64,000 nucleotides of DNA from NCBI RefSeq assembly GCF_903469665.1, contig NZ_CAGKLC010000002.1, forward strand, positions 62,001 to 126,000. The letters run 5' to 3'. Positions 32,353-58,321 of the stretch are shown here, piece by piece; the first letter of the stretch is position 1, and each line of letters opens with the position of its first letter. The notes under the pieces were generated by a model. That model was not told the origin of the DNA, did no database searches, and saw only the letters and a program-made list of their open reading frames with translations. The position numbers and the translations under genes are program-made. The stretch is from Flavobacterium sp. UGB4466. GTDB lineage: Bacteria > Bacteroidota > Bacteroidia > Flavobacteriales > Flavobacteriaceae.

Positions 32353-32384
32353 AAAAAGGGCTAAAGGAGAATTTCTGCTTTAGC
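32353..32384 (-). terminator. Attenuator hairpin in the metK leader
   Basis: On the minus strand GCTAAAG-C-AGAA-a-TTCT-C-CTTTAGC folds into a 7 + 4 bp stem with one C/C mismatch, then CCCTTTTT. The 5' arm GCTAAAG is also the 3' strand of the SAM-II-like pseudoknot, so the two structures compete or overlap. Confidence 0.7.
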
Positions 32385-32472
32385 ATTTTTTACTACCGAA
32401 AGTAATGTTTCAGTACCCATAACGAACCGTTTCATTATGAAGAGGTTGCAATCAGTTCAAATTTTTCCTCTT
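32375..32472 (-). promoter_or_regulatory. SAM-II-like riboswitch upstream of metK, with two inserted hairpins
   Basis: Read on the minus strand: P1 is AAGAGG (32472-32467) pairing with CCTCTT (32445-32440). The loop between them contains AATTTGAACTGATTGCAA, which lines up with the conserved L1/P2 segment of SAM-II. The 3' part GTAAAAAATGCTAAAGCAG (32393-32375) matches the SAM-II AUAAAUG..GCUAAA strand; CTG/CAG and GCA/TGC give the P2 pseudoknot. Between P1 and the 3' strand are two hairpins: CATAATGAA-ACGG-TTCGTTATG (32439-32418) and TACTGAAA-CATTAC-TTTCGGTA (32415-32394). Position, gene and terminator overlap all support SAM control. The class call is by my own alignment. Confidence 0.72.
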
Positions 32473-32483
32473 GTATTCGCGTG

Positions 32484-32655: not shown

Positions 32656-32721
32656 ATGAAATTAACGATTTGCAATATGTCATGTATGATGCCGGAGCCT
32701 TCCGCAGAGACACTGTTGTAG
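32656..32721 (+). CDS. Met/Cys-rich leader peptide (21 aa) of the TonB-receptor gene
   Basis: ATG to TAG encodes 21 residues with a run of Met and Cys (ICNMSCMMPEP). It lies about 25 nt downstream of a promoter and 25 nt upstream of an intrinsic terminator. GCAGAG at 32704-32709, inside the last codons, is complementary to CTCTGC (32750-32755) in the terminator's 5' arm. This fits ribosome-mediated attenuation responding to charged tRNA-Met or tRNA-Cys. It is too short for normal gene finders. A longer overlapping frame (32631-32828) has no such features. Confidence 0.65.
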   Translation: MKLTICNMSCMMPEPSAETLL

Positions 32722-32746
32722 TTTTTTTTAAGAAATATACATATAG

Positions 32747-32774
32747 AACCTCTGCCGCTCGCAGGGGTTTTTTT
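32747..32774 (+). terminator. Leader terminator upstream of the TonB receptor
   Basis: Stem AACCTCTGC / GCAGGGGTT (one G/T pair), loop CGCTC, then eight T's; positioned between leader peptide and receptor gene. Confidence 0.85.
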
Positions 32775-32843
32775 GTACCAAAAAGAAACCGGATTGTAAA
32801 TCATTTTTTAAGTCAGAAAACAATATAAAACCAGAAAAAAGTA

Positions 32844-35690
32844 ATGAAAAAGAATGTAGTAGTAGCTTTAAGTCTTTTGACCTTTTCAGGCATTTATGCG
32901 CAGGAGAATAAAAAAGAACAGGACAGTTTAAAAAATAATGAATTGACCGAAGTGACCATTGTAGGGTCGCGCAGTAAAAACAGAGTAAAAACAGATGTAC
33001 CGGTTCCGGTTGACGTTTTTAATATTTCAGAAATAACAAAAGGAGCGCCGCAAACCAGCGTAACTCAAATTTTAAATTATGTGGCACCTTCTTTTACCAG
33101 TAATGCAACTTCTACGGCAGATGCGACAGATCACGTTGATCCGGCACAGTTAAGAGGTTTAGGGCCGGATCAGGTTTTGATTTTGGTAAACGGAAAACGA
33201 AGACATACAAGTTCATTAGTCAACATTAATGGATCGCCGGGAAGAGGATCGGTAGGAACAGATTTAAATGCTATACCTTCATTTGCCATTGAAAGAATCG
33301 AGGTTTTACGCGACGGTGCAGCCGCTCAGTACGGCTCAGATGCGATTGCGGGAGTTATTAATATCGTATTGAAAAAGAATGCCAACTATCTTTCAGGAGA
33401 CATACAGTATGGTACTAACTTATCTTCGGGATCGAATAATTTTAAAGGAGGAGCCGACGGGCAGAATCTGCAAGTTGATTTAAATTACGGGACCTCTTTG
33501 GGTAAAGCAGGTAGTTTTTTAAATGTTACCGGTAGTGCTGTGACCAGACAGGCAACAAGCCGCGCGGGAATTAGAAGCAACGCAATTTTTAATGCCTACA
33601 ATGCTGTCGAGAACAGAGCAGCTCAGAACGGTGTGAACATTAATTCATTTTTCAGTAATATTAATAATACCTCAAATTCAGCGCAAATTTTGAATTCGCT
33701 GAAACAGTATGCACCACAAGTGGGTTACTTTACACCGGCACAGCAAAGTGCTATCGCTTCGGCAGGTACTATTGCGCAAATGCAGACTGCTTTGAATTTT
33801 GATGTAACCAACAATGAGTTGGCGTACAGAGGTCAGGAAAGAAGCGACTATAATATGAGTGTGGGCCAGTCTGAATTAGCATCTGGACAATTATATTACA
33901 ATACAAAGTATCCGTTAACAGAAACAACATCTCTATATTCATTTGGAGGTCTCTCGTATAGAAATGGTAGATCGTATGCTTTTAACAGGCTTCCAAACGG
34001 TTCAGGAACTTTTACACAGGTATACCAAAATGGATTTTTACCGGAAATAGAATCTTCAATCTTAGATGCTTCTGCAGCAGTTGGAGCTACAACAGAATTA
34101 TTCGGTTTTGACACCGATATTAGTACAAACCTCGGGACAAACTCTTTTAAATATGATGTGAACAATACTATTAATGCTACTTTGGGAACCAATTCGGCTT
34201 CAAGTTTTTATGCCGGTAAAGTTTCGTTCTTGCAAAGTACAACCAACTTGGATTTAAGTAAGAAGTACGATGTTTTAAACGGCCTGAACGTTGCCTTTGG
34301 TGGAGAATTCAGATATGAAAAGTACCAGATTCAACAGGGAGAAGAAGCTTCTTACGGATTGTATGATACCAACGGAAATTTGGTTCCTGGAATTTTACCA
34401 AGCAATTCACCTTTAATCGTAACCGACTTTTTCGGGAATAAACGTGGAGCCGGAGCACAAGGATTCTCAGGGTTTCAGCCTTCAGATGCTAAAGTTAAGG
34501 ACAGAAAAAGTGGCGCAGCTTATGTAGATTTAGAATTAAATGCAACAGAAAACTGGCTTCTAAACGGAGCAGCGCGTTACGAGAACTATTCTGATTTTGG
34601 AAGTACCGTTACCTTTAAACTGGCATCTCTTTTGAAATTAACAGGCAATATCAACTGGAGGATTTCAGGACAAACAGGTTTTAGAGCTCCTTCCTTACAG
34701 CAAAAATATTTTGAAAGCAGTTCCACTCAGTTCATAAACGGTTCGCCATATCAGGTTGGATATTTTACAAATGATTCACAGGCTGCCAAAAGTATTGGGG
34801 TTGAAAATTTAAAACCAGAGAAATCAAAAAGTATCAGTACCGGATTTACATTCAAGATTCCTGAAGCCAATATTACTATTGCAACAGATGCTTATTTTAC
34901 CAGAATCGACGACAGAGTGGTATTAACCGGGCAGTATGCAAGACCAACAGATGCACAGATCAATGCAGCAACGTCGCCGCAACAAAAAGATGCTTTAACC
35001 TTATTTCAACAGGCCTTTGATTTAAAAGGTGTGGAAAGAGCTTCGTTCTGGACCAACGGAATCAACTCGGAGACCAAAGGTATTGATGTTGTAATTTCGC
35101 ATAAATACAATGTTATCCCCGATTTCACCATCAGAAATGATTTTGCATTGAGTTATAATACTACCAAAAGAGTGGGAGAATTAAATGTTCCTCAATCCAT
35201 TATCAATGCAGGTGGAGAGCCTTTTAAATATTCATTCTTTCCGGAGTCAAGCCGAATTTATTTAGAAGAAGCCATTCCAAAATTGAAAGCCAATTTGATG
35301 ACTACGTTTAGTATCAAAAAACTGGACATTTATTTGAGAAACAGTTATTTCGGAGCAGTGACAGACCCGGGAGCGACTGATGTAAATTTAGACGGATCAT
35401 CTTCTGTTTACGAACATCCTGAATACAGCGCAAAATTGGTTACCGATTTGTCTTTCGGATATCAGATTAACGAGAAATTCAGATTCACCGTTGGGTTTAA
35501 TAATATAGGAGATGTTTATCCGGACCGAAATAATCCGGCAACACCTGCCTTTACCAATACAACGCCAACCTTGTCGCCTGCACCAAGTACAGATTTAAGC
35601 AACGCCAATCAGTTTGCTTATTCCAGAGCAGTATCACAATTTGGATTAAACGGAAGATTTGGTTTCGCCAGATTGAGTTTTAAGTTCTAA
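32844..35690 (+). CDS. TonB-dependent receptor
   Basis: A 948-aa outer-membrane active transporter. Signal peptide [19 protein letters not shown], a TonB-box-like [11 protein letters not shown] at about residues 33-43, a plug domain ([54 protein letters not shown]; the last is the plug signature) and a 22-strand barrel ending in [10 protein letters not shown]. No CarboxypepD_reg domain and no SusD partner are present, so it is a classic small-ligand receptor. The Met/Cys leader and the surrounding sulfur genes suggest it takes up a sulfur compound or a cofactor such as cobalamin; that is inference. Confidence 0.9.
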
Positions 35691-35703
35691 GACCATAATA
35701 TTG

Positions 35704-35778
35704 GCCACAGATTATAAGGATTAAACGGATTTACGTTGATCTGATAATCATATTAATCCCTTAATCTGTGGCTGTTTT
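35704..35778 (+). terminator. Terminator-like inverted repeat after the TonB receptor
   Basis: Arms GCCACAGATTA..AAGGATTAA and TTAATCCCTTAATCTGTGGC, about 19 pairs with one slipped base, followed by TGTTTTTT. Confidence 0.75.
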
Positions 35779-35842
35779 TTCTAGCGTAAAGCCTGCATTT
35801 ACAAGGAGTAATAAAAATTTTACATTAAATATTGATATTTAA

Positions 35843-35874
35843 TTTGGTAGTTAGGAAAATACTTATTACATTTA
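35843..35874 (+). promoter_or_regulatory. Promoter of the metY leader
   Basis: -33 TTTG (35843-35846), exactly 20 nt, then -7 TACATTTA (35867-35874; consensus TAnnTTTG with a final A). The leader peptide starts about 45 nt downstream. Confidence 0.6.
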
Positions 35875-35925
35875 CTCTATAGAATTAGTCGAATTAAAAA
35901 AGCATTAATTTTAAATCAAATAAAA

Positions 35926-36006
35926 ATGAAAACAATAGCAAATAGTATGATGATGTGTTGTGAGATGATGCAAATGTGCATCCCAAATTGCTGTTACCAA
36001 AAGTGA
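35926..36006 (+). CDS. Met/Cys-rich leader peptide (26 aa) of the metY operon
   Basis: ATG to TGA encodes 26 residues, of which 7 are Met and 5 Cys, including the run SMMMCCEMMQMC and then NCC. The octamer ACCAAAAG (35996-36003), immediately before the stop, is perfectly complementary to CTTTTGGT (36043-36050) in the 5' arm of the following terminator. A ribosome stalled on the Met/Cys run would leave ACCAAAAG free to block the terminator; a ribosome reaching the stop would cover it. This is the textbook attenuator layout, for genes that make homocysteine and methionine. Confidence 0.82.
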   Translation: MKTIANSMMMCCEMMQMCIPNCCYQK

Positions 36007-36037
36007 AAGAGTAAATCTTTGTTATAGTTAGAACTAT

Positions 36038-36073
36038 AAGCCCTTTTGGTCGCCATCCGAAAGGGCTTTTTTA
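36038..36073 (+). terminator. Attenuator terminator upstream of metY
   Basis: Stem AAGCCCTTT / AAAGGGCTT with a TGGTCGCCATCCG loop, then T's. The CCCTTTTGGT...ATCC..AAAGGG core is shared with the terminator at 39415-39451. Confidence 0.88.
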
Positions 36074-36096
36074 ATTCCAAAACTAAAACAAGTATC

Positions 36097-36285
36097 ATGA
36101 AAACACTACATATTATAGTAAGAGAGATTTTATACCGATTGAAAACCGATTATAAACGATTTACAGCTGCAGTTAAAAATAGAAAAGTGAATACCGCTAA
36201 AATAAAAGGAGAGCTTTATTCGAGTGAATCAAATTCTCTGCTTTTCCAAATGTACCTGCACGAAGAAGAAGATCTTTTTATTTGA
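36097..36285 (+). CDS. Small conserved protein, unknown function (SLLFxMY family), copy 1
   Basis: A 62-aa protein starting at the ATG at 36097, 24 nt past the attenuator terminator. The first 30 residues are basic and may form an amphipathic helix (VREILYRLKTDYKRFTAAVK). The C-terminal end, NSLLFQMYLHEEEDLFI, matches the end of the 66-aa protein at 39531-39731 (DSLLFLMYSKENETLFI). It lies between leader and metY and is probably co-transcribed. I do not recognise the family. Both copies sit behind the same kind of attenuator in methionine loci, which argues that the protein is real and tied to sulfur metabolism. Confidence 0.7.
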   Translation: MKTLHIIVREILYRLKTDYKRFTAAVKNRKVNTAKIKGELYSSESNSLLFQMYLHEEEDLFI

Positions 36286-36355
36286 GATATAAAAACGACT
36301 GTAATAATTAAAGAATAAACCAAAAGCTATAAACAATACCTAAAACTAAGAAATC

Positions 36356-37660
36356 ATGAGCACACAAAAATTTGCCACAAATGCGCTACACGCGGGACAC
36401 GATGTTACTAAAAATGCAGGAACCAGAGCAGTTCCAATTTACCAGACATCATCGTATGTTTTTAACAATTCAGATCATGCAGCTAATTTATTTGGTCTTG
36501 CTGAAGCCGGATTCATTTACACCCGATTAAACAACCCTACAAATGATGTTTTGGAACAACGCCTTGCGGCGCTTGAAGGTGGAATTGGGGCAGTAGTTAC
36601 AGCCTCAGGAGCCTCTGCAATTTCCACATCTTTATTGACTTTGCTAAAAGCAGGAGATCATATAGTGGCTTCTAATAGTTTGTACGGAGGAACGTATAAT
36701 TTATTGAGCGTAACTTTACCGCGTTTAGGGATCACAACTACCTTTGTAGATCCTTCAAAACCCGAAAATTTCACTAAAGCTGCCAAAGAAAACACACGGG
36801 CATTTTTTGTTGAATCTTTAGGAAACCCAAAATTAGATGTACTCGATCTGAAAGCGATTGCAGTGGAGGCTAAAAAATTTAAGGTTCCTTTTATTGTAGA
36901 CAATACAGTAGCTACTCCTTATTTATTAAATCCGATTGCTTACGGAGCAGATATTGTCATTCACTCCCTTACCAAATATATTTCAGGAAACGGAACCTCA
37001 TTAGGAGGGGCCATTATCGACGCCGGAACTTTTGACTGGGCGAATGGTAAATTTCCTGAGTTCACAGAGCCTTCACCGGGATATCATGGTTTAGTGTATC
37101 ACGAAGCTTTAGGAAATGCCGCTTTCATTGCTAAAGCCAGAATCGAAGGATTACGTGATTTTGGAGCAGCTTTGAGTCCGTTTAATGCTTTCCAGATCAT
37201 TCAGGGATTAGAAACCCTGCCAATTCGAATTCAAAAACACAGCGAAAATGCTTTGGCTTTGGCTTCCTGGTTAGAAAAACAGGAAGAAGTAGCCTGGGTG
37301 AACTATCCGGGCTTAAAAAACAATAAGTATTATGACTTGTCACAGCAGTACTTGCCAAAAGGGCAAAGTGGTGTTGTTACCTTTGGATTAAAAGGAGGTT
37401 TTGAAGCAGCCAAAAAAGTGGTAGATGAAACCCAGCTCTTCTCGCTTCTGGCCAACATTGGTGATACCAAGTCATTAATCATTCATCCTGCAAGTACAAC
37501 GCATCAGCAATTGTCTGATGCCGAACAATTAGAAACGGGAGTTTCAAAAGATCTGGTTCGACTTTCCGTTGGATTGGAAGATATAGAAGATTTAATTGCT
37601 GACTTGCAAACAGTTTTTGCAAGCGTGACCGAGTCACAATACAGCATTAATAAAAACTAG
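36356..37660 (+). CDS. metY: O-acetylhomoserine sulfhydrylase (MetY-type)
   Basis: PLP enzyme of the Cys/Met metabolism family; joins O-acetylhomoserine with sulfide to give homocysteine. Its 434 aa are the length of MetY rather than the about 390 aa of MetB/MetZ. Evidence: ALHAGHDVTKNAGTRAVPIY at the N terminus, YTRLNNPTNDVLEQRLAALE, SGASAISTSLLTLLKAGDHI, and the PLP lysine in DIVIHSLTKYISGNGTSLGG (near residue 209). It follows small protein 1 by 70 nt and the Met/Cys leader, and ends in a terminator before the homoserine-dehydrogenase-like gene. Confidence 0.93.
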   Translation: MSTQKFATNALHAGHDVTKNAGTRAVPIYQTSSYVFNNSDHAANLFGLAEAGFIYTRLNNPTNDVLEQRLAALEGGIGAVVTASGASAISTSLLTLLKAGDHIVASNSLYGGTYNLLSVTLPRLGITTTFVDPSKPENFTKAAKENTRAFFVESLGNPKLDVLDLKAIAVEAKKFKVPFIVDNTVATPYLLNPIAYGADIVIHSLTKYISGNGTSLGGAIIDAGTFDWANGKFPEFTEPSPGYHGLVYHEALGNAAFIAKARIEGLRDFGAALSPFNAFQIIQGLETLPIRIQKHSENALALASWLEKQEEVAWVNYPGLKNNKYYDLSQQYLPKGQSGVVTFGLKGGFEAAKKVVDETQLFSLLANIGDTKSLIIHPASTTHQQLSDAEQLETGVSKDLVRLSVGLEDIEDLIADLQTVFASVTESQYSINKN

Positions 37661-39279: not shown

Positions 39280-39381
39280 ATGCAAGAATTTTTTAAAATA
39301 GTAATTAAGTCCCAGATGAATAAGTCCCTACAGATGAACAAGATGTTTAACGTCGCACGTATTTGTGTATGCGTCTGTTGA
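39280..39381 (+). CDS. Met/Cys leader peptide (33 aa) ending in ICVCVC
   Basis: ATG to TGA encodes 33 residues with Met at 13, 19 and 22 and a C-terminal ICVCVC; an internal ATG (39343) would give MFNVARICVCVC alone. TGATACTAAAAG (39379-39390), which includes the stop codon, is complementary to CTTTTGGTATTA (39419-39430) at the terminator's 5' arm: 12 pairs with two G/T wobbles. Stalling on the Cys codons would free this antiterminator. The layout repeats that of the metY leader, with conserved terminator sequence but a different peptide. Confidence 0.78.
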   Translation: MQEFFKIVIKSQMNKSLQMNKMFNVARICVCVC

Positions 39382-39414
39382 TACTAAAAGTATATATGAG
39401 TTGTAAAAAACTTG

Positions 39415-39451
39415 AACCCTTTTGGTATTACAAATCCAAAAGGGTTTTTTT
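39415..39451 (+). terminator. Attenuator terminator before small protein 2
   Basis: Perfect stem AACCCTTTTGG / CCAAAAGGGTT with a 10-nt loop and seven T's from the start of the tract. Confidence 0.92.
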
Positions 39452-39530
39452 ATTCCATTTGGTTACGATAACAAAGAAATAAACATAAAATAAAGATAAT
39501 AACACGCAAACTAACATAAACTTAAATGTC

Positions 39531-39892: not shown

Positions 39893-39921
39893 CACCTTTA
39901 AGTTCAAAAACGTATTGAAAT

Positions 39922-40026
39922 GTTATAAAGAAAGGACGAGGGATTAGACCCGATGAATCCTTAGCAACCCTTCGTTAAATCGAAGAAGGTGCTGCATTCT
40001 ACCACCCCTAAACGTGGAAAGATAAC
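39922..40026 (+). promoter_or_regulatory. SAM-I (S-box) riboswitch upstream of metX
   Basis: P1 is GTTAT (39922-39926) / ATAAC (40022-40026). The conserved S-box core is clear: GAGGGATTAGACCCGATGAA, then CCTTAGCAACC, a P3-like hairpin CTTCG..CGAAG, AAGGTGCTGCATTCTACC, and the closing GTGGAAAGATAAC. S-boxes bind SAM and turn off methionine genes. The expression platform in the 73 nt before metX is not obvious; pairing of CTTTCTTT (near 40055) with AAAGAAAG (39927-39934) is one option for an alternative fold. Confidence 0.95.
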
Positions 40027-40099
40027 AACAAGAAATTTTCTGGTTTCACTCTAGACTTTCTTTCTAATATTTCCACATACAAATCAAAATTAAAAAGAT

Positions 40100-57943: not shown

Positions 57944-57966
57944 CACTGTTCTTAAAATTATTGAAA

Positions 57967-58077
57967 GTTATCACGAAAGGCGGAGGGAAAGACCCAATGA
58001 AACCTTAGCAACCCTTTATCATAAAGAAGGTGCTACATTCTACTTAATACAACATCTTTGTATTCAAGATAGATAAC
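57967..58077 (+). promoter_or_regulatory. SAM-I (S-box) riboswitch upstream of metH
   Basis: P1 GTTATC (57967-57972) / GATAAC (58072-58077). Conserved S-box core: GGAGGGAAAGACCCAATGAA, CCTTAGCAACCC, hairpin CTTTATcATAAAG, AAGGTGCTACATTCTAC, then a variable P4 with ACATCTTTGTATT. The most similar element in the window is the metX S-box. The platform is not clear; a hairpin TTAACGCA-tttttttg-TGCTTAA (about 58161-58183) may act. Confidence 0.94.
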
Positions 58078-58321
58078 ACAAATACATTACACGTATTTCT
58101 CAAACTTTTCCTGACAATCTTACAATATTATTTTACTGAATTCAGTATCATGAGCGAATCATTAACGCATTTTTTTGTGCTTAATCTTTCCTGCTTTTTG
58201 TTGCGAACTTTTTAGATCTGACAGCTTTATTTAAACTGTTGGATTTAAAGTGAAAATAGAATTAATAAAAAAACTTAGCATCGTAGAACCTCAGTGTCTT
58301 AGTGGCTAAAAGAATAAAGAT

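Follow-up and report, generated by a model that had tools for sequence, protein, structure and literature searches.

What controls metY in a Flavobacterium sulfur amino-acid cluster in which known riboswitches stand close by? The window analyzed here, a stretch of 64,000 nucleotides from a 5.34-Mb genome (G000), holds such a cluster with three known switches, one SAM-II and two SAM-I. Its nearest named metY relative found was that of Flavobacterium tructae, 99% identical. Within the cluster, hom, the aspartokinase-homoserine dehydrogenase gene (thrA) and cysH have Pfam support, metX, metK and others were named by eye from sequence and context, and metH is our label for a homocysteine S-methyltransferase gene with PF02574. 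For the region directly upstream of metY, the original prediction proposed attenuation of the trp/his type, with a Met/Cys-rich leader peptide before a homocysteine-forming enzyme. The enzyme is indeed O-acetylhomoserine sulfhydrylase, and we presume metY to be the gene under control. The comparisons below support the proposed logic: both the leader ORF and the antiterminator pairing are conserved in relatives, with covariation. Sequence and comparative evidence (the ORF and terminator, helices that exclude each other, covariation, frame conservation, gene context and alternation with SAM-I) makes it very probable that the element is a ribosome-mediated transcription attenuator with a Met/Cys-keyed leader. 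The prediction understated its extent, as this attenuator is one of two related types that are often paired and stand before several genes.

The predicted parts of the leader were largely present as described (Table 1). The 26-codon ORF is the sole ATG ORF of 15–45 codons with at least 40% Met plus Cys on either strand of the window, and 100 order-1 shuffles of the window yielded none. Its covariance score was 153.3 bits with the type B model, R2, of whose building set the sequence is a member. An intrinsic terminator follows, and the 1.3-kb region has three terminator-like sites versus 0.9 (sd 1.0) in shuffles. The complementarity predicted between the leader's end and the terminator's 5' arm was also found: ACCAAAAG complements CTTTTGGT (36043–36050), which is common to terminator and antiterminator. 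The predicted promoter fared less well. A block resembling the Bacteroidetes −33 TTTG/−7 TAnnTTTG pattern is present, and L039 has a similar one, but the call is weak because the −7 box has one mismatch, and only 2/21 lone type B leaders have a strict TAnnTTTG box in the preceding 90 nt. We also considered the terminator of the upstream gene and rejected it. That gene, encoding the TonB receptor, stops at 35690 and, judged by eye, is followed by a long inverted repeat of its own with a T-tract (~35705–35781); the leader's terminator stands ~250 nt beyond that repeat, behind the leader.

Table 1. Coordinates of the attenuators, riboswitches and neighboring genes in the window
Feature	Position	Strand	Remarks
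SAM-II riboswitch	32370-32476	-	before metK
Type A leader ORF, MKLTICNMSCMMPEPSAETLL and stop	32656..32721	+	R1 match 86.9 bits, E 2.1e-13 in window
Type A terminator	32745..32777	+	5' arm CTCTGC pairs with leader GCAGAG, 32704-32709
TonB-dependent receptor gene	32844..35690	+	3' of type A attenuator; PF00593, PF07715
Promoter-like block, TTTGGTAG (35843) ... TACATTTAC (35867)	35843..35875	+	sequence; weak call
Type B leader ORF, MKTIANSMMMCCEMMQMCIPNCCYQK and stop	35926..36006	+	26 codons: 7 Met (start included), 5 Cys
Antiterminator 5' strand, ACCAAAAG	35996..36003	+	codons 24-26 of leader
Intrinsic terminator (36038-36068) and U-tract	36038..36072	+	12 pairs, 6 GC
Small ORF, 62 aa	36097..36285	+	between metY's attenuator and metY
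metY, O-acetylhomoserine sulfhydrylase	36356..37660	+	TIGR01326, 647.4 bits, cut-off 495.1
Second type B leader ORF, MQEFFKIVIKSQMNKSLQMNKMFNVARICVCVC and stop	39280..39381	+	R2 match 49.5 bits; copies in named relatives
Second type B copy, antiterminator strand ATACTAAAAG (39381-39390) and terminator	39381..39454	+	
Paralogous small ORF, 66 aa	39531..39731	+	behind second type B copy
SAM-I riboswitch	39920-40028		before metX-like gene
SAM-I riboswitch	57965-58079		before metH

We then searched for metY in 199 genomes of the family (Flavobacteriaceae) and 121 of the genus, and took upstream DNA from 138 metY genes. The window's genus supplied 70 of them, from 68 genomes of which two carry two copies, and other genera the remaining 68, picked from the better-scoring ones with some skipped. 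One more genus metY (G256) lies outside the sample. With units of fewer than three internal Met/Cys codons excluded, 74 loci yielded 112 leader–terminator units (type A, 53; type B, 59); these are row counts, not independent events. Type was assigned by order where two units were present and otherwise by terminator motif. In all, 38 loci carry A then B, 15 A only and 21, the window's metY among them, B only. Type B, the proximal and originally reported one, has the antiterminator strand CCAAAAG. The distal type A has GCAGAGG, with its complement CCTCTGC in the terminator; one such leader reads MNLIICNMCCMMWKFPQRTFIA. The type A motif was located in 41/53 units, and 12/53 A and 2/59 B units had no scanned motif. 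Other complementary pairs occur among these twelve: TGTGGG:CCCACA (L064, L067, L080), GCGGG:CCCGC (L082, L083) and TGAGGG:CCCTCA (L093).

Taken singly, the antiterminator duplex is modest: across the 112 units, the median share of leader-side letter shuffles that equaled it was 7% for A and 6% for B, and single matches were only moderately unusual, with ≤5% of shuffles reaching them in 24/53 A and 29/59 B units. The complementarity is therefore significant because it is conserved, not because it is rare by itself, and given this weak control we relied on covariation. Alignment A1 comprised 36 of the 53 type A units, leaving out near-duplicates and a subtype with a CCTCCC-like terminator; alignment A2 comprised 49 of the 59 type B units. 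Cells of the terminator helix were paired in 98.0% (A) and 99.8% (B), and those of the antiterminator in 89.7% and 93.4%, with changes on both sides in 8 of the 12 type B terminator pairs. All four helices beat all 500 shuffles, uncorrected for relatedness, in cells paired, double-change cells and covariation score. Two further measures were unremarkable for the antiterminators: 82 (A) and 87 (B) of 500 shuffles were as high in pairs with double change, and 49 and 59 in further pair types. When the partners were slid by 1–3 columns, cells paired and covariation score always dropped, although not every other measure did. The clearest single covariation result is pair 107:181 of the type B antiterminator. 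All 48 sequences with letters there pair (GU 27, AU 8, UA 8, GC 5), and because column 181 lies in the terminator loop, only the antiterminator explains this.

Type A leaders have a candidate third helix, a possible 1:2 hairpin, in which TGCAATA (codons C-N-M) can pair with TATTGCA just 3' of the antiterminator strand, enclosing GGAA..TTCC. Its cells were paired in 74.3% (69.2% in the other inner register), and 9/12 pairs showed double changes. The TATTG element persists where the leader stops before it (L048, L073, L095). Such a helix would hide the antiterminator strand when the leader is free of ribosomes.

Several features suggest that the leaders are read as codons. Gaps in the type B leader columns were multiples of three in 160/161 row-gaps, compared with 32/247 behind the leader; for type A, the figures were 88/106 and 64/137, and 14 of the 18 leader exceptions were 4-nt gaps. 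Met made up 15.3% (A) and 20.7% (B) of leader residues versus 1.2% in seven window proteins, and Cys 9.1% and 16.0% (terminal Cys included) versus 0.3%, the two being the most enriched among the ten commonest leader residues. In 36/41 motif-located type A units, 14–15 nt separate the start of the last Met codon from the antiterminator strand, approximately the distance that a ribosome would cover when that codon occupies its A site; in type B, this distance is 23 nt in 35/57 units. Each leader has on average 1.9 (A) or 2.7 (B) Cys codons lying 12 nt or more upstream of the antiterminator.

These observations bear on two rival explanations. Short peptides rich in Met and Cys can bind metals, and the ORF might encode a functional peptide of this kind, or a peptide precursor, with an ordinary terminator downstream by chance. 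However, the end of the peptide follows the RNA: the type A motif is read as S-A-E or P-Q-R, in frame 0 in 22/41 and frame 2 in 18/41 units, and the type B strand falls 3' of the stop codon in 8/57. In type A, it is the RNA that is conserved, not the peptide, and we regard a functional peptide as extremely improbable. The second rival is an uncharacterized riboswitch or protein-binding leader, whose RNA would bind a sulfur metabolite or a protein and whose Met/Cys ORF would be incidental. This would suit a leader that occupies the place of SAM-I in relatives, as well as the extra type A helix with its partial covariation. The triplet gaps of type B and the spacing of the last type A Met codon argue against it, as does the codon richness kept while the peptide drifts; in L099–L101, L103 and L104, the peptide has drifted to runs of Met, and Cys is missing ahead of the antiterminator. 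In addition, Rfam gave no match at gathering score at the metY leader (best E 0.43 in a permissive search), and no family reached its threshold at any of the window's three modules. SAM-I and SAM-II, both present elsewhere in the window, gave no match in 35690–36360 up to E 1. We consider this second rival very unlikely. A T-box leader was also tried and rejected, with no Rfam T-box match in either the gathering-score or the permissive search.

For the preferred reading, a ribosome-mediated attenuator, we infer translation, stalling, the tRNA read, the order of events and the response to Met and Cys. A ribosome would start the Met/Cys-rich ORF on the nascent leader RNA. If charged Met-tRNA (or Cys-tRNA) were scarce, it would stall on codons 8–18 with its front edge short of ACCAAAAG; the freed strand would pair with CTTTTGGT once this was made, the terminator would come too late, and metY would be transcribed. 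If Met and Cys were plentiful, a ribosome at the leader's end would cover ACCAAAAG, allowing the terminator to form and transcription to stop. In folding the RNA, we assumed that the ribosome extends 12 nt beyond the first base of the codon in its A site. In transcripts ending before the 3' arm, the antiterminator was the minimum-energy fold for stalls at codons 8, 14, 17 and 18, enclosing two small hairpins, and was absent when the ribosome stood on codon 22 or 23 or on the stop codon. The window's type A folds alike (codons 8 and 12 versus stop). Once the 3' arm was included, the terminator appeared in every fold tested; for the codon-17 stall, the energy was −23.8 with the full terminator, compared with −14.5 when the transcript ended ahead of the 3' arm and the antiterminator formed. 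As the terminator, once complete, is the more stable of the two, control would have to be kinetic, set during transcription.

The sensing codons are likely those at positions 8–18. The last two Cys codons, 22–23, adjoin the antiterminator strand, and a ribosome stalled there would sit on that strand and favor termination. They are probably kept for the RNA, because the pairing in some relatives runs through them into the terminator loop (GTTGCCAAAAG:CTTTTGGTAGC). This RNA-driven look of the terminal Cys codons is one point in favor of a true leader-peptide attenuator that senses a general slowing of translation, or Met only, rather than Met and Cys charging; another is that the type B leaders of L099–L101, L103 and L104 contain no more than a single Cys, placed close to their end. 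The strong enrichment of Cys over background and the internal Cys codons argue the other way, and we judge such restricted sensing unlikely.

Comparison across the 138 metY upstream regions revealed an alternation between sensors. Leaders were found in 74 and SAM-I, called by an HMM built from Rfam matches, within 400 nt of metY in 60; none had both and four had neither, one of which (L011) offered only 383 nt of upstream sequence. All 60 SAM-I loci lie outside the window's genus. Leaders were present in 68/70 upstream regions within the genus and 6/68 outside, the latter a lower bound, as type A also occurs before metY in L265, L268 and L272–L275. Thus, the attenuator occupies the position taken by SAM-I in the majority of the other Flavobacteriaceae examined. 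In a tree of 39 MetY proteins, the deep forks were weak and the leader bearers were not united. The leader-bearing L021 falls inside a clade (support 97/96) in which the seven remaining members all carry SAM-I, a placement pointing to more than one sensor exchange, or to transfer.

The type A model, R1, was used to look further afield. It matched 21/199 family genomes at E ≤ 1e-4 and 8/295 genomes of the class at E ≤ 1e-5; six of the eight belong to the window's genus, and the other two are L284 and L285. L285 has a leader, a terminator and a complement before metY. L284, from another family of the class, shows a very Met-rich short ORF, MIKMTMMMTMMMFILMMIDFKKLY, then a GC-rich hairpin with a T-tract and no complement, either a chance repeat or another attenuator. 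Among 20 held-out matches outside A1 (the window's type A aside), the complement was seen by eye at the expected place in 15, which is not an independent count as R1 favors the motif. In three, the pair had changed jointly with the terminator: GCAAGGGC:GCCCTTGC (L268), GCGAAGGC:GCCTTTGC (L272) and GCAGCG:CGCTGC (L271). Five matches, L284 among them, lacked the complement: L270 has a leader, L283 has a leader with another terminator subtype, and the L279 match is, by eye, the end of a longer reading frame. The fifth, L278, is an R1-matched terminator without a leader ORF, upstream of an msrA-like gene (methionine sulfoxide reductase, by eye). In the shuffle control of held-out loci (11/13 loci with a scan-usable terminator), ≤1% was reached only in L268, L272 and L281.

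Named species carry both types. Of 20 named loci chosen from 80, 19 reached at least 50 bits with R1 and all 20 with R2, and the region upstream of F. psychrophilum metY scored 87.7 bits (A) and 120.8 bits (B). Two contigs filed under Lentimicrobium and Bifidobacterium breve MAGs (L252, L258) have a Flavobacterium-like metY with A and B leaders and are probably mis-binned.

The window itself holds three modules: type A at 32656–32777, type B at 35926–36075 and a second type B at 39280–39454. Riboswitches and leader attenuators thus stand side by side in its cluster. The window's type A sequence lay outside the building set of R1. The presence of the 32656–32777 attenuator before the TonB receptor gene suggests that this receptor imports a sulfur compound; the order of type A module and receptor gene recurs in L173, L174 and L178. 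In the second type B copy, the R2 match spans 39319–39454, the leader begins at 39280, and the ATACTAAAAG strand starts at the last base of the leader's stop. The 62-aa and 66-aa ORFs are paralogs, each directly 3' of a type B attenuator, with a shared C-terminus like SLLFxMYxxExExLFI. Neither had a match in the Pfam and NCBIfam libraries (E ≤ 0.001 and E ≤ 0.01, respectively, for the 62-aa ORF). With tblastn, relatives were found in 73/80 named loci, at two places in 39. Possibly, they encode a small regulatory protein.

R1 and R2 were also run, with stricter filters, on 41 genus genomes. At E ≤ 0.001, R1 matched in 30 and R2 in 38, the latter including many weak, partial matches. Gene contexts were taken from 14 genus stretches, with weak R2 matches (~30–40 bits), often partial and starting past the leader part of the model, left uncounted. 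Modules stood before a TonB receptor gene and metY (L173, L174, L178), metX-like genes (L165–L167, and in L171 behind a small ORF), cysH (PF01507; L167, L169), an OsmC family gene (L166) and a Cys/Met PLP enzyme gene (L167). They also preceded a short homoserine-dehydrogenase-like ORF near metH (L168, L170), which had no Pfam match in L170. In L172 (4810–5108), L175 (926–1063) and L176 (1121–1258), an A or A+B module is followed, after ~550–580 nt, by the ATPase gene of an oligopeptide-type ABC transporter.

At the 38 A–B loci, 5–169 nt separate the A terminator from the B start codon, and this closeness alone suggests that A and B share one transcript. No B leader standing behind A (0/38) had a TAnnTTTG box within 90 nt, and the strict box preceded 18/53 A leaders. 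A looser test, TTTG 10–40 nt upstream, gave 9/38 B leaders behind A, 49/53 A leaders and 0/21 lone B leaders. Because the lone B leaders fail too, the box test gives no evidence that A and B lie on one RNA. On a shared transcript, RNA polymerase would have to pass both attenuators. A broader scheme is conceivable, though we lean slightly against it: the Flavobacterium sulfur regulon would be run by serial paired attenuators, repeatedly swapped with SAM-I, so that sensing shifted from SAM to the charging of Met and Cys tRNAs. If so, tandem A and B would act in an AND-like manner with a steeper response, and the modules would have spread as units between metY, metX, cysH, TonB receptor and transporter genes.

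These results give Bacteroidota a covariation-supported candidate, without an Rfam family, for leader-peptide control of methionine and cysteine genes. Initiation in bacteria of this kind is largely independent of Shine–Dalgarno sequences (PMC6847099), and the candidate bears on whether transcription and translation are coupled sufficiently for attenuation in such initiators. The genus concerned includes the model F. johnsoniae, the paired attenuators offer a compact, measurable logic, and metY under a SAM riboswitch or under Met/Cys codons in related lineages presents a testable exchange of sensors.

Leader-peptide, or ribosome-mediated, attenuation is classical, with E. coli trpL and hisL as examples. 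The Flavobacterium leaders share with these the codons for pathway products in the leader ORF, the intrinsic terminator and the mutually exclusive antiterminator, and type A also has a candidate helix that would hide the antiterminator strand. They differ in their Met/Cys codons, in an antiterminator strand inside the leader's coding end or just past its stop, in having two types, and in occurring in Bacteroidota. Among the open-licence PMC papers listed by our literature searches, we saw no account of such Met/Cys leaders upstream of metY in any member of the Bacteroidota. Attenuation by Met/Cys leaders is nevertheless not wholly without precedent. Streptomyces lividans metL, before metNIQ, likewise encodes a leader peptide with Met and Cys ahead of a methionine gene, but the study detected no typical Rho-independent terminator at that site (PMC8079986), whereas the Flavobacterium leaders have a covarying terminator and antiterminator and precede several genes. 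Cys-rich leader peptides or uORFs have been proposed in the Actinobacteria Mycobacterium, P. acnes and B. longum, with runs of Cys codons before cysteine genes as here (PMC1262725, PMC4633059); unlike those of Flavobacterium, they involve Cys only, and no conserved terminator hairpins were found in the Mycobacterium regions (PMC1262725). Within the same genus, a 2021 transcriptome study of F. psychrophilum reported strong indications of attenuation by leader peptides upstream of amino-acid operons; pheA and hisG are among the genes named in this connection, whereas met and cys genes are not (PMC9723704). In Salmonella mgtCBR, too, a single leader combines two short ORFs with two attenuators; there, mgtM responds to ATP and mgtP to proline (PMC3641672), whereas in Flavobacterium both leaders carry Met/Cys codons. 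The SAM-I riboswitch (S-box, RF00162) serves the same gene, metY, in related genera, but senses SAM directly and is absent before all 74 leader-bearing metY genes. A comparable exchange of sensors has been outlined for hisS, which is preceded by a T-box or a His leader peptide depending on lineage (PMC2965389). In both cases, one and the same gene is preceded by a leader peptide in certain lineages and by a different RNA sensor elsewhere; the gene and the phyla differ, and in our case the exchange is between SAM-I and a Met/Cys leader.
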